Origin: Candidatus Babeliales bacterium | GTDB taxonomy: Bacteria > Babelota > Babeliae > Babelales > JACPOV01 | DNA length: 60,651 bases | NCBI GenBank assembly: GCA_020054235.1 | Contig: JAGVLQ010000004.1 | Location: 1 to 60,651, forward strand | Direction: 5' to 3' | Shown: in pieces, positions 26,528-31,696 of the stretch | Numbering within the stretch: the stretch's first letter is position 1 | Layout: the number at the start of each line of letters is the position of its first letter | Program-made: the position numbers and the translations under genes | Notes under the pieces: generated by a model | What the model saw: the letters and a program-made list of their open reading frames with translations, nothing else | Database searches by the model: none | What the model was told of the DNA's origin: nothing

Positions 26528-26938
26528 TTAATTAACACTTAATCTCACTTTAAAATACTGGTAAAAAACATCCATTTTTTTATCATTCCGAGCTACCGGT
26601 GAGTTTAAACTTTTTTCAAGTAATTTTGCTGCTAAAACACTTTGATTTGTACGAGCTAATAAAATTGCTCCATAACGATAAGCAATAGCAAAATGTGGGT
26701 CAAGCTCTGTAATCATTGAAGTAAATAACCAAATATATTTAGGTTCTAACCTTTTTGCTACCAAAATTTTAAACCAAAAATAATCTGCTGCGATATTTTT
26801 CAGGGAACAGTACAATGAAGCAGGGACAAAAAAATAGGAATCGTTTTGAACTTGATACGATTTTTGTAAATATTTATTGCAAAAAATAGTAATAACAAAA
26901 AAAAAGGCGAAAAAAATTGATTGAACAATTTTTTTCAC
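26528..26938 (-). CDS. Signal-anchored TPR-like protein linked to the pilin gene
   Basis: This 136-residue protein has one N-terminal membrane helix (SIFFAFFFVITIFC) and then a helical segment containing AADYFWFKILVAKR and ELDPHFAIAYRYGAILLAR. The latter resembles a TPR-like protein often found beside prepilin genes in other phyla (from memory; function unassigned). Its start overlaps the pilin-like gene's stop by four bases (ATGA), so the two are translationally coupled and probably act together. Confidence 0.6.
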   Translation of the reverse strand: MKKIVQSIFFAFFFVITIFCNKYLQKSYQVQNDSYFFVPASLYCSLKNIAADYFWFKILVAKRLEPKYIWLFTSMITELDPHFAIAYRYGAILLARTNQSVLAAKLLEKSLNSPVARNDKKMDVFYQYFKVRLSVN

Positions 26939-27426
26939 GCTAAATCATCTTGTACAATTTTTATATCATTAAATTGATTTACCGTTAAAATATCAGCAAG
27001 ACCATCACCATCAATGTCACCTGCTGCAGCAGCAACAAAGCTATCTTGTCCTGCTTGTGTTTGTTGTAAATCAGAAGCAGGAGAATTTAATTTACCAGTA
27101 AAATAACTTTGTCCTTCTTGGCCACCAGCAAAACCATAGGTATAATAAAACCGCTCGTTAGCACCACCTGTTGTATATCCTTCAGGCTTCCAGCCAACCC
27201 CACCTGGTCCATTTAATACTGTTGAATATTTACCATGTTCAGCATGAAAAGCTTTTTGAGCTATGTAAAGAGCACCTAGATTCATATATGCTTCTGCTCG
27301 TTTTGCTTTTGATAAAAAACGCATAAAACTTGGTACTGAAATCATTGAAAGAAATGCAACAATTGCAACAACAATCATTAACTCAATAAGGGTAAAACCG
27401 CTGTGTTTTTGCTGCATTTTTTTCAT
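26935..27426 (-). CDS. Type IV pilin-like protein (PilA/GspG class)
   Basis: This 163-residue protein has a class III leader: a short basic peptide, then G|FTLIELMIVVAIVAFL with Glu at position +5, exactly the prepilin peptidase site. A helical stem (AEAYMNLGALYIAQKAFHAEHGKYS) is followed by a Gly-rich globular domain with no Cys pair, and it ends with GDIDGDGLADIL, an Asp-rich loop like calcium-binding loops. It could form a pilus, a competence pseudopilus or a type II secretion pseudopilus. The ATG at 27417 is an alternative start. The peptidase gene is at 25158..25919. Confidence 0.85.
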   Translation of the reverse strand: MKKMQQKHSGFTLIELMIVVAIVAFLSMISVPSFMRFLSKAKRAEAYMNLGALYIAQKAFHAEHGKYSTVLNGPGGVGWKPEGYTTGGANERFYYTYGFAGGQEGQSYFTGKLNSPASDLQQTQAGQDSFVAAAAGDIDGDGLADILTVNQFNDIKIVQDDLA

Positions 27427-28193: not shown

Positions 28194-28301
28194 AGATTAT
28201 AGGCAATTTTCAATTAAAATTGCAATCCCAAAAAATGGTTGAGTGGTAATTTTGGAGGTTTTAGAAAGAAGTTTTTTTTATACTTTTGAGTGGAGAAAAT
28301 C

Positions 28302-29720
28302 ATGGTCAATGCTACAAGAAAAACTGTTTCTCAAGGAAAAGAAATAGTAACAGGCATTCAACGAAATTATAATGAAATCGTTGAATATCTCGATTCTCAT
28401 TGGTCAACGCGCACTGAAAAAGACTTAAGCGTTATGCAAGCTCTTGATAGAGCACTCAACAATCCTTCAAAAGATGTTAATGCAGTTTTAGTTGGTGGTA
28501 CTAATGGAAAAGGACTAACCATCAATTTTGCAAGCATTCTTTTAAAAGAAGAAGGCTTTCGCGTTGGTACTTTTTATTCGCCGCATATCCTAACCTATAA
28601 TGAGCAATTTGCGATCGATAATGAAATTATTTCAAATAAAGCTTTTACTGAACTAGCCAATGAAGTCATAAACACCGCTGAAGTGCATGCAATTAAAGCA
28701 ACTACTCTTGAAATTTTATCAGTAATGGCTCTTATGTATTTCAGAGATCAAAAGGTTGACGTTGCACTTCTTGAAATGCGCAAGCGTAATGCCTTTGATC
28801 CATTTGCAATTTGCAGTCCAAAAATTGTAGCAATCACCCGTATAACTGATGATATGATTCCAGGATCAACAACTCCGTTAGAAACTATCATTAAAGATAT
28901 GTTGCAATCAATTAAAACAGAAACACATGTTGTTTCTGCAGATCAAAGCAAAACAAATCTTCAAGCAATGCTTGATGAAACTAAAAAACATGGCGGTACT
29001 TGGGCAATGCCTATTCGTAAGCTTGCACCATTAGCGTATCCTTTTGAACAACTTCATGGCCGATGTGCAGCTCTTGCAGAGCGTATTTGCCAAATTTATG
29101 TTGATGAATTTAGTCAAACAGCTGCCGTAACCGATGCAAGTTTACTTGCAAAACAAAAAGGTCAACGTGGCCGCCCTACCCTAGAAGCAAAACGCCAAGC
29201 TGAATTAAATCCTAAAAAGACTCTTGATCAATTTTGGAAAGAAAATAGTGCACAATTACCAGCGCACTTTGAGCTTCTTGATAAAGAAAAACCATCTATT
29301 TTGCTCGATAATGCACGCAATATAGATGCTATTAAAAACTTATTGCTTGGTATTCGCTTAATGCATTACCAACGACCTCTTAAAGGTTTAGCCTTTATTT
29401 TCGGTTGCGATAAAAATCTTATCAATGCAGAAAAATTCTTGAGAGAATTGCGCTATTTTTCAAAAAAAATGTCTGCGCACATTATTTTCTGTCCAATCTC
29501 TCAATCAATTCCTGGCGTTTTTGAAGAATCATGGAATGTTGATCAAATTACCAATGATGTTAAAAGTTTAAAAATAAAAGCAAAATCTGCAAAAAACTTT
29601 AACGAAGCCTTTGAAATGGCAAAACAATTAGTTGATGAACGCCATGGGCTTGTGGTAATTTCAGGATCTCAAACACTTATTGCTGAATACTGGCGTCATA
29701 AAGGTATGAAAAAACTGTAA
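28302..29720 (+). CDS. folC: Divergent folylpolyglutamate/dihydrofolate synthase (Mur-ligase family)
   Basis: The 472-residue protein keeps the family P-loop GGTNGKG (65-71), SPHILTYNEQF, TTLEILSVMAL and a C-terminal ligase domain. Two hallmark motifs are altered: the central GLGGRxDATN-type segment reads EMRKRNAFD, and the LDGAHN motif reads LDNARN. There is also a basic insert (KQKGQRGRPTLEAKRQ) before the PAHFEL segment. It may still add glutamate to folate, may use another substrate or may be inactive. GGAG is eight bases before the ATG at 28302; the longer GTG frame is not needed. It heads the cluster with the ATPase membrane subunits. Confidence 0.75.
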   Translation: MVNATRKTVSQGKEIVTGIQRNYNEIVEYLDSHWSTRTEKDLSVMQALDRALNNPSKDVNAVLVGGTNGKGLTINFASILLKEEGFRVGTFYSPHILTYNEQFAIDNEIISNKAFTELANEVINTAEVHAIKATTLEILSVMALMYFRDQKVDVALLEMRKRNAFDPFAICSPKIVAITRITDDMIPGSTTPLETIIKDMLQSIKTETHVVSADQSKTNLQAMLDETKKHGGTWAMPIRKLAPLAYPFEQLHGRCAALAERICQIYVDEFSQTAAVTDASLLAKQKGQRGRPTLEAKRQAELNPKKTLDQFWKENSAQLPAHFELLDKEKPSILLDNARNIDAIKNLLLGIRLMHYQRPLKGLAFIFGCDKNLINAEKFLRELRYFSKKMSAHIIFCPISQSIPGVFEESWNVDQITNDVKSLKIKAKSAKNFNEAFEMAKQLVDERHGLVVISGSQTLIAEYWRHKGMKKL

Positions 29721-29726
29721 TCACTT

Positions 29727-30020
29727 ATGAGCATTATTTCAGTATTTGTTTCAAGCATACTAGGAATTATATTAGGTTTTGCATATGGGCTTTCCTTCAC
29801 AAGAAGGAAAGCCTTTTGCTTGAGCAATAATAAATCTCAGAATTTTGTACGTATGAGCGGTCTTTCAATAGTAAGAATTGCTTCTTTGGCTTATATTCTT
29901 TTTTATATAATACAAGCGGATTCTATACAAACTAGCCTTGTAGTGATACTATTTGTAGTAACTTCGTGGTCTATTATATTAAAAAACAAGGTTCTTTATG
30001 ATGGAAATAGAATCATTTGA
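29727..30020 (+). CDS. Small membrane protein, AtpR/AtpI-like
   Basis: This 97-residue protein has three membrane helices (about residues 5-22, 40-60 and 68-85) and the cluster SFTRRK after the first helix. Placement directly before ATPase subunit a, size and helix layout fit the small proteins AtpI (F-type) or AtpR (N-type ATPases), which aid c-ring assembly or ion delivery. Sequence similarity is too weak to choose. It starts six bases after folC and overlaps atpB by 20 bases. Confidence 0.5.
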   Translation: MSIISVFVSSILGIILGFAYGLSFTRRKAFCLSNNKSQNFVRMSGLSIVRIASLAYILFYIIQADSIQTSLVVILFVVTSWSIILKNKVLYDGNRII

Positions 30021-30735
30021 ACAAAACCAAGTCAATATTGGTTCATGGTTCGGCATAGAATCTTCTTTTCTTACAATTTCCCTTGGCACAATCTTTAATA
30101 CTTGGTTTATTCTTTTACTTCTCATACTTATCCTTCTTCTGTTCCGCTTTTCCTTAGAAAGGAAAAAAAGCACTCTGGCATATATACTATTATCAGCTAC
30201 AGAATCTTTCATGGAATTAATTAGTCAAACGCTGGGAAAGTTTATATATAAACATTTTGCCTTCATAACTTCACTTTTTATTTTTATTTTATTCTGCAAT
30301 TGTATCGCAGTAATTCCATGGACAACAGAACCTACTACTGATTTAAACACAACGCTCGCTCTTGGTCTCGTATCCTTTTTTTACAAAGAATATTATGCCA
30401 TAAAAACACAAGGTTTATGGGGATATTTTCAAGAATTTTTAAGACCATTCTTTTTAATGCTACCAGTTAATATTATTGGACATTTTTCAAAAATTATCTC
30501 AATATCGTTCCGCTTATTTGGCAATATCTTTGGTGGCTCCATCATCATGGAACTTTACCGACATGCAATAGCTGGATCATTACTTTTGGAACTTCTTGGT
30601 CTCTTTTCAGGATTAAATTTTTTAATTCTGATTTTTTTTGGCCTTTTTGAAGGAATTATTCAAGCTTTTGTATTTTCTATGTTATCATTAACCTATCTAG
30701 CTCTTGCTTTGCAAGAAGATGAACCAGAGGCATAA
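30001..30735 (+). CDS. atpB: F-type ATPase subunit a
   Basis: This 244-residue integral subunit forms the ion half-channels next to the c-ring. The essential stator Arg is R171 in the segment ISISFRLFGNIFGGS, matching the LRLFGN motif of the family. About five or six helices are visible, with TTEPTTDLNTTLALGLVSF before the long hairpin. Adjacent ATGs occur at 29998 and 30001. It overlaps the preceding gene and is separated from the fused c-subunit gene by one base, so expression is coupled. Confidence 0.9.
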   Translation: MEIESFEQNQVNIGSWFGIESSFLTISLGTIFNTWFILLLLILILLLFRFSLERKKSTLAYILLSATESFMELISQTLGKFIYKHFAFITSLFIFILFCNCIAVIPWTTEPTTDLNTTLALGLVSFFYKEYYAIKTQGLWGYFQEFLRPFFLMLPVNIIGHFSKIISISFRLFGNIFGGSIIMELYRHAIAGSLLLELLGLFSGLNFLILIFFGLFEGIIQAFVFSMLSLTYLALALQEDEPEA

Positions 30736-30736
30736 A

Positions 30737-31696
30737 ATGTTTGATCTTGCTTTTATCCTTCATTTTGCAAGTATTGCCCTAATAATTATTTTATGTACTT
30801 TAGGAGGTGGGATTGGTGGTGGATTAACAGGTGAAGCTGTTATTGAAGCAATTAATATTCAACCGCGCGCTCAAGGTCAAATTTTAAAAACCTCTATCAT
30901 CGGCTTAGCTCTCATCGAAACAGCATCAATTTTAGCGCTCATTATTACCTTTTTATTATTTAAAGAAAAATCACTCGAAAATTTTACACTGACAAATGGT
31001 GTCGCAAAAATTGGTATAGCTCTTTCGATTGGCATTACTTCATTATTTGTTGGTATCGTTTCAGCCCTTCCTGTAAGAAAATCCTGTTTGGCTATTGCAC
31101 GTCAACCTTTTTTTAGCCAAAAGATTCTCAATCTCATGATCATAACTCTATCTATCATTCAAACGCCGGTAATTTTTGGCTTTCTGATTGCTCTTTTTAT
31201 TAACTTTCAGATATCATCTTCGTCTATCTTTTACGAAAGCATACGATTTCTTGCTGCTGGTATTGCAATAAGCATTGGATCAATTGGCCCTGTGCTTGGA
31301 CTTGCAAAATTTGCAGAAAAAGCTTGTTATAGTCTCAGCATTAATAGAAATTCTTATGATGTTATAATACCGTTTGTTTTTATGAGTGCAGCAATTATAG
31401 AAACTCCTTTAATCTTTGCATTTTTGGTATCACTTATTATCACCTTAACGCCTCTCTCTAATGAGAATCCTTTAGCTGCAATTCGCATGATAAGTGCAGC
31501 ACTATGCATCGGACTTGGCACTTTAGCACCAAGTTTGAGTTCAAGCAAAACAGCAACAGCAGCTTGCCAAGAAATCGCCTACAAGCCTCAACATTATTCA
31601 TTACTCTCTCAAGCTAGCATGTTCGGTCAAGGTCTTATCGATGCAGCAGCAGTTTATGCACTTTTAATTGCTTTAATGATTATATTTATTCCTTAA
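30737..31696 (+). CDS. atpE: F-type ATPase subunit c, four hairpins fused in one chain
   Basis: A normal c subunit is a single hairpin of 75-90 residues; this chain has 319 residues and reads as four consecutive c-type hairpins. The ion-binding positions on each outer helix are E61 (ALIETASIL), Q142 (SIIQTPVIF), E222 (AIIETPLIF) and D302 (GLIDAAAVY), spaced 80-81 residues apart. Polar loops recur in register (IQPRAQG, ARQPFFS, INRNSYD, YKPQHYS). The Gln codon is CAA, one base from Glu GAA. The first hairpin has the Gly-rich GGGIGGGL helix. The start at 30737 is one base after atpB; the frame opening at 30704 reads back into atpB. No other ATPase subunit gene is in the window. Confidence 0.88.
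   Translation: MFDLAFILHFASIALIIILCTLGGGIGGGLTGEAVIEAINIQPRAQGQILKTSIIGLALIETASILALIITFLLFKEKSLENFTLTNGVAKIGIALSIGITSLFVGIVSALPVRKSCLAIARQPFFSQKILNLMIITLSIIQTPVIFGFLIALFINFQISSSSIFYESIRFLAAGIAISIGSIGPVLGLAKFAEKACYSLSINRNSYDVIIPFVFMSAAIIETPLIFAFLVSLIITLTPLSNENPLAAIRMISAALCIGLGTLAPSLSSSKTATAACQEIAYKPQHYSLLSQASMFGQGLIDAAAVYALLIALMIIFIP

Follow-up and report, generated by a model that had tools for sequence, protein, structure and literature searches.

Across the Babelota/Dependentiae, a four-hairpin F-type c subunit and an ordinary single-hairpin c subunit are encoded as a pair, and this pair is fixed in the phylum. The fused gene was found in the window, the whole 60,651-nucleotide stretch of Candidatus Babeliales DNA analysed here. 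Taking all the evidence together, we think it reasonably likely that the fused protein is part of a mixed ring in the sole F-type ATPase of the cell and that this enzyme probably operates as an ATP-driven ion pump.

The gene lies on the forward strand at positions 30737-31696, where an uninterrupted reading frame encodes 319 amino acids. Searching its translation against the Pfam ATP-synt_C profile PF00137 (curated cut-off, 24 bits) gave four matches (E=2.5e-26, 92.1 bits), and each of the four hairpins, taken alone, exceeds the cut-off. Hairpin 1 spans residues 2-75 (30740..30961), which form helices 2-41 and 43-75 in the AlphaFold2 model, with the ion-site Glu61 at 30917-30919. Hairpin 2 spans residues 85-159 (30989..31213), with a neutral residue, Gln142, at its ion site (31160-31162) and the loop A-R-Q-P-F-F at residues 121-126. 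Hairpin 3, residues 165-237 (31229..31447), carries Glu222 at 31400-31402 and a nearly invariant E-T-P motif, and hairpin 4, residues 245-317 (31469..31687), carries Asp302 at 31640-31642. All four are on the forward strand. The helix-2 carboxylate is present in hairpins 1, 3 and 4, with Gln in its place in hairpin 2; the codons are GAA, CAA, GAA and GAT in that order, and the sites are 81, 80 and 80 residues apart. The AlphaFold2 model, for which the input alignment comprised 96 orthologues, has a mean pLDDT of 97.4 and a pTM of 0.93. These results bear out the first-pass annotation of this DNA, which had read from the letters four c-type hairpins with sites E61, Q142, E222 and D302, one of them uncharged. 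For close orthologue pairs, the dN/dS of the fused gene is 0.03–0.13, indicating strong purifying selection. With orthologues in 96 of 101 genomes, the low dN/dS and a confident structural model, the four-hairpin observation stands far above chance.

The start codon of the fused gene is one base past the stop codon of atpB (29998..30735, forward strand), which encodes an F-type a subunit of 245 amino acids (PF00119, E=4.6e-38), the sole a subunit in the genome. The start of atpB is overlapped by a gene for a small membrane protein of 97 amino acids (29727..30020, forward strand), for which position and topology provide a weak assignment as AtpI/AtpR-like. The window protein had no significant Pfam match and none to AtpR, and its homologue in Dependentiae bacterium Noda2021 matched PF03899 (ATP-synt_I) with an E value of 0.0028, failing the Pfam cut-off. 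A small membrane ORF precedes the a gene at 81 of the 96 loci of relatives. The gene had been described as part of an F-type operon, and the context is indeed F-type and not V-type, but the local set consists only of the AtpI/AtpR-like, a and c genes, the genes for F1 and the stalk being on other contigs.

Further features were observed near these loci. Just upstream, at 28290-29720, the window encodes a FolC-like protein of the Mur ligase family, which scored 145.6 bits against a TIGR01499 cut-off of 162.65 and may be a diverged FolC; a homologue occupies the same place in Noda2021 (L010:3557-4966). At 26935-27426 there is a type IV pilin/pseudopilin-like protein with an FG-GAP-like tail, and a similar gene lies near the equivalent locus of Noda2021 (L010:2160-2639). 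At another locus (L011:741-4364), the region upstream of the a gene encodes a pyruvate phosphate dikinase/PEP synthase-like protein of 1207 amino acids, compared with 795 in L012. Its extra stretch (C..GDTILLTSKGF ... LGAMSTDGSIYL ... LGGVIDGDGTF ... VVFTERYTPILVNNC) resembles an intein with a LAGLIDADG endonuclease. The a-subunit gene of genome G064 (C66:14698-15402; L011/L045) contains an internal TAG, representing a sequencing error, a frameshift or a real stop.

The remaining ATPase genes, which the first-pass annotation had proposed to search for, were located on other contigs of this genome (1.25 Mb, 95% complete). An ordinary single-hairpin atpE of 82-87 amino acids is present on contig C5, just 5' of the genes for b, b' and delta, and alpha belongs to the same gene run. 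PF00119 had a single match, the a subunit encoded with the four-hairpin c on contig C13. PF00006 matched alpha once (C5) and beta once (C22), the third match being Rho, and gamma (PF00231) had a single match, on C3. The F1 genes are therefore scattered over C5, C22 and C3, and the two c subunits are encoded at different loci. The genome thus encodes every one of the F-type subunits a, alpha, beta and gamma, and its two c genes are accompanied by a single F1 and a single stator. A second complete ATPase serving the fused c is ruled out by the single copies of a, alpha, beta and gamma, and the idea of a genome devoid of atpE by the gene on C5. A normal-length atpE had been named beforehand as a finding that would count against the annotation; its presence weakens what was concluded about ring composition and leaves the four-hairpin observation intact.

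Right after alpha, at a position where gamma could have been expected, a recombinase-like ORF was observed on the opposite strand (C5:61224-63362; L007:2701-3597). At another locus (L001:1732-2584), two small ORFs of 123 and 165 amino acids follow the single c at the position of b and b', and judging from these the peripheral stalk may be heterodimeric.

The distribution of both c genes was surveyed in 101 Babelota/Dependentiae genomes. The four-hairpin c was recovered in 96, and all 96 orthologues have four hairpins. The single c was also recovered in 96 genomes (85 aligned sequences and 11 further genomes), its ion-site Glu being invariant among the aligned sequences (85/85), and 92 genomes contained both genes. 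At all 96 loci of the fused gene, the a gene is directly upstream, with one full a gene per genome. Four genomes had the fused gene only (G051, G053, G058 and G060) and one had neither c gene (G010), and all five lacked alpha; four others had the single c only (G021, G040, G046 and G061), and all of these lacked the a gene. Given that the adjoining alpha or a gene is absent too, the missing c genes look like assembly gaps, as far as this can be tested, and a true absence of the single c in some species is disfavoured. Named relatives include the complete genome of Noda2021, in which the fused protein is 45% identical, and Babeliales/TM6 metagenome-assembled genomes. A contig scan using short exact peptide patterns, an approach insensitive to distant relatives, returned only four loci, all from Dependentiae.

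The ion-site states differ among hairpins. Site 61 of hairpin 1 is E in 92 of the 96 orthologues and D in 4, site 222 of hairpin 3 is E in 91, and site 302 of hairpin 4 is D in 56, E in 39 and G in 1. At site 142 of hairpin 2, Q was found in 62 orthologues (52 with CAA and 10 with CAG), E in 24, M in 7, V in 2 and G in 1, so that the site is neutral in 72 of 96. The most frequent four-site patterns are E-Q-E-D (44), E-E-E-E (21), E-Q-E-E (13) and E-M-E-D (7), others being rare. On a tree of the a subunit and the fused c with ion sites masked, the neutral state corresponds to one clade of 72 species (71 neutral, the exception being G076 with E) and Glu142 to a counterpart clade of 24 (with the neutral exception G049), requiring three changes versus 21 in shuffles. 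Gln142 is a fixed feature of a large lineage. The tree is unrooted and does not itself give the direction of change; since the other hairpin positions keep a carboxylate in nearly all species, the natural reading would be that a carboxylate was lost at 142.

In helix 1 of hairpin 3, the Gln position (L189 in the window, 31301-31303) holds Gln in 23 of 24 members of the E142 clade; in the neutral-142 clade, Leu or a different hydrophobic residue predominates. Covariation between this position and site 142, strong in the raw counts, was considered and rejected: G076 and G049 retain the hairpin-3 state of their own clades, and the association therefore reflects one deep branch. Several ion-site changes appear, from the alignment and the tree, to sit on that branch.

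A tree of individual hairpins, built from 77 columns and thus of limited resolution, recovered one group for each of H1, H2, H3, H4 and the single c (support 97, 99, 87, 94 and 86, respectively). Each hairpin position being one clade phylum-wide, the tree shows a single fusion of the hairpins that preceded the radiation of the phylum, and the tandem duplication of a c gene that the first-pass annotation had proposed as their origin is supported. In profile comparisons, H4 was nearest to the single c and H2 was the most diverged. The A-R-Q-P-F-F loop of H2 is the most conserved of the loops (R in 92, Q in 88 and P in 95 of 96); the corresponding loop reads N-R/K in H3 and is variable in H4. Loops of this type contact the central stalk in the c subunit of Escherichia coli.

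The Na+ ligands of c-rings are Gln/Glu32, Glu65 and Ser/Thr66 (PMC2359735, PMC3692424). The full motif Q/E32-E65-S/T66 was found in 73 of 85 single c sequences, 68 of 96 H1 and 24 of 96 H3, and in none of the 96 H2 or H4 sequences. In the window's genome the single c has the full motif and no hairpin of the fused chain has it, the helix-1 Gln being absent from all four. Judging by these residues, ion specificity looks uneven among the hairpins.

The first-pass annotation could not place this architecture, and a parallel does exist. In the hybrid F/V rotor of Acetobacterium woodii and Clostridium aceticum, a fused c likewise occurs beside an ordinary c within one F-type enzyme, and the second hairpin of the two-hairpin c1 lacks the carboxylate and has Gln instead (Q....QT; PMC7911925). 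The gene content of such a rotor, comprising a fused c with a lost carboxylate, an ordinary c and one F1Fo set, was found in the window's genome. By sequence, A. woodii c1 (4bem_J) is the PDB chain nearest to both the fused and the single c, and it also heads the listed fold matches of the fused chain. At the ion site of its second hairpin, c1 has the residues A-Q-T-T, and the deposited 4bem entry contains nine c2 chains and one c1 chain. Among the matches listed, none covered all four hairpins well, the best TM-score by query being 0.45. In contrast to the two hairpins of A. woodii c1, all 96 Babelota orthologues have four; the Babelota fusion is fixed in a whole intracellular phylum; and the fused gene comes directly after that for a, with the single c at another locus. 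In the hairpin tree, the halves of A. woodii c1 are each other's partners, so the two fusions are independent.

Other systems show partial likeness. V-type proteolipids (NtpK of Enterococcus hirae and eukaryotic c, c' and c'') also combine fused hairpins with a lost carboxylate, and V-type 2bl2 matched two hairpins of the fused c with a TM-score of 0.82 by target. However, the window's genome has F-type a, alpha, beta and gamma, and its fused c has lost one in four sites and not one in two; the matches to PF00006 (alpha, beta and Rho) and PF00119 (the stator a) gave no indication of the A/B head and I/a-type stator of V/A-type enzymes. Serial fusion of hairpins is shared with archaeal c subunits, of which that of Methanocaldococcus has three hairpins and that of Methanopyrus kandleri 13, in one protein of 1021 amino acids with a full site in each hairpin (PMC2359735). 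These are, unlike the present case, archaeal enzymes, and that of M. kandleri has no lost sites. N-ATPases were considered as well. The order of small membrane protein, a and c resembles their R-B-E arrangement, and there is sub-threshold similarity of a and c, but membership was rejected: c scored 76.6 bits against TIGR03322 (cut-off 130.85) and a scored 98.9 against TIGR03306 (cut-off 302.1). Nor does the genome have the single operon atpDCQRBEFAG with AtpQ and AtpR: alpha (C5), beta (C22) and gamma (C3) lie apart from one another and from a and the fused c (C13), and there was no Pfam match to AtpR.

With only one gene each for a, alpha, beta and gamma, the two c proteins have to work with the same stator and the same F1, and a mixed c-ring is the best-supported reading, its assignment to the hybrid-rotor kind resting on gene content. 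In such a ring, the four fused hairpins would cover four neighbouring places, and the remaining places would most likely be filled by the single-hairpin c, making the ring permanently mixed in the manner of Acetobacterium. There would probably be one four-hairpin chain per ring. Hairpin 2, with Gln142, is unable to carry an ion and would be an empty step when it moves past the a subunit; in this species the number of ions per turn would equal the hairpin count minus one per fused chain. The unequal Na+ motifs among hairpins count against the mixed ring, as does the separate location of the two c genes. A more specific form of this proposal, which we put forward tentatively as a possibility, is an obligately asymmetric rotor with exactly one fused chain per ring and a division of labour among its hairpins: H1, H3 and H4 would carry ions, and H2, which in most species no longer does so, may act through its almost invariant A-R-Q-P-F-F loop as a docking key that holds the central stalk on the ring.

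Rings built of four-hairpin chains only, as the first-pass annotation had assumed, appear unlikely. Such a ring could consist, for example, of three chains with 12 hairpins and 9 carboxylates, the single c serving another ring or condition. The constant position of the four-hairpin gene beside the sole a gene and the selection acting on all four hairpins would suit it. Nevertheless, the single c is equally universal, with its Glu invariant and its gene beside those for b, delta and alpha of the only F1; this phylum-wide conservation of an ordinary c gene speaks against the assumption, and another ring would require a stator of its own, of which there is no sign with one a gene.

We regard as still less probable the converse, a ring of the single c only, with the four-hairpin protein serving as an assembly template, a plug or another Fo accessory. 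AtpI-type proteins help ring assembly, and the fused gene lies near an AtpI/AtpR-like gene, but three carboxylates are retained in nearly all 96 species, as expected for ion exchange with the a subunit, and one neutral site within an intact fold also occurs in c1 of A. woodii, a component of the ring there. Sequencing error, which the first-pass annotation had allowed for at Gln142 given that Gln and Glu codons are one base apart, as well as chimeric assembly or a decaying pseudogene, can be set aside as extremely improbable, since the evidence comes from 96 separate genomes, with Q in 62 encoded by both CAA and CAG, M, V or G in 10, frames open throughout and dN/dS of 0.03-0.13.

Regarding the direction of operation of the mixed ring, ATP/ADP translocases (PF03219) were found in 98 of the 101 genomes, the three without them being drafts of 68-82% completeness; the window's genome has four matches to this family, including C10:32410-33705. 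Complex I (PF00346) was detected in 0 of 101 genomes, and the search of the same genomes for the terminal oxidase COX1 (PF00115) returned no intact copy, only a 69-aa fragment at a contig end in G023. These data agree with the earlier suggestion of a host-dependent cell that imports ATP. Three ATP/ADP translocases have been described in Babela (PMC4378268), and the ATP synthase of Chromulinavorax destructans has been proposed to run in reverse (Deeg et al. 2019, PMC6561590). Given the near-universal translocases, the lack of complex I or an intact oxidase in the survey and this published proposal, ATP-driven pumping is likely, and the F-ATPase is probably run as an ion pump; within the host cell, imported ATP would drive the rotor mainly in reverse, energising the membrane. 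The lost site itself had been thought to favour this direction. The clade that retains Glu142 also carries the translocases, which therefore do not separate the Gln and Glu clades, and Gln is not needed for ATP-driven pumping. Moreover, if a mixed ring contains one fused chain, loss of the site would alter the ions per turn by just one.

Two-hairpin hybrid rotors of acetogens and multi-hairpin archaeal c subunits are already known. Among open-licence papers, we found no report of a bacterial F-type enzyme with four hairpins in one c chain, or of a phylum in which a fused c is fixed throughout. To our knowledge, the four-hairpin protein would be the largest fused c subunit known in bacteria, if it does act in an asymmetric rotor.

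Ring composition determines the ion-to-ATP ratio of rotary ATPases, and it has long been asked why ion sites have disappeared from some rotors. Here, a phylum of intracellular bacteria, sampled in about 100 species, keeps a gene set of a single and a four-hairpin c, and it offers a natural comparison between one clade with all four sites and a sister clade with one silenced, apart from the apparent exceptions G049 and G076. If the rotor is asymmetric as proposed, these clades would represent a natural rotor series with four versus three active sites per fused chain. A mixed ring would depart, in a genetically fixed way, from the symmetry usual in F-type rotors, and such a mixed rotor may contribute to membrane energisation in these ATP-importing parasites.
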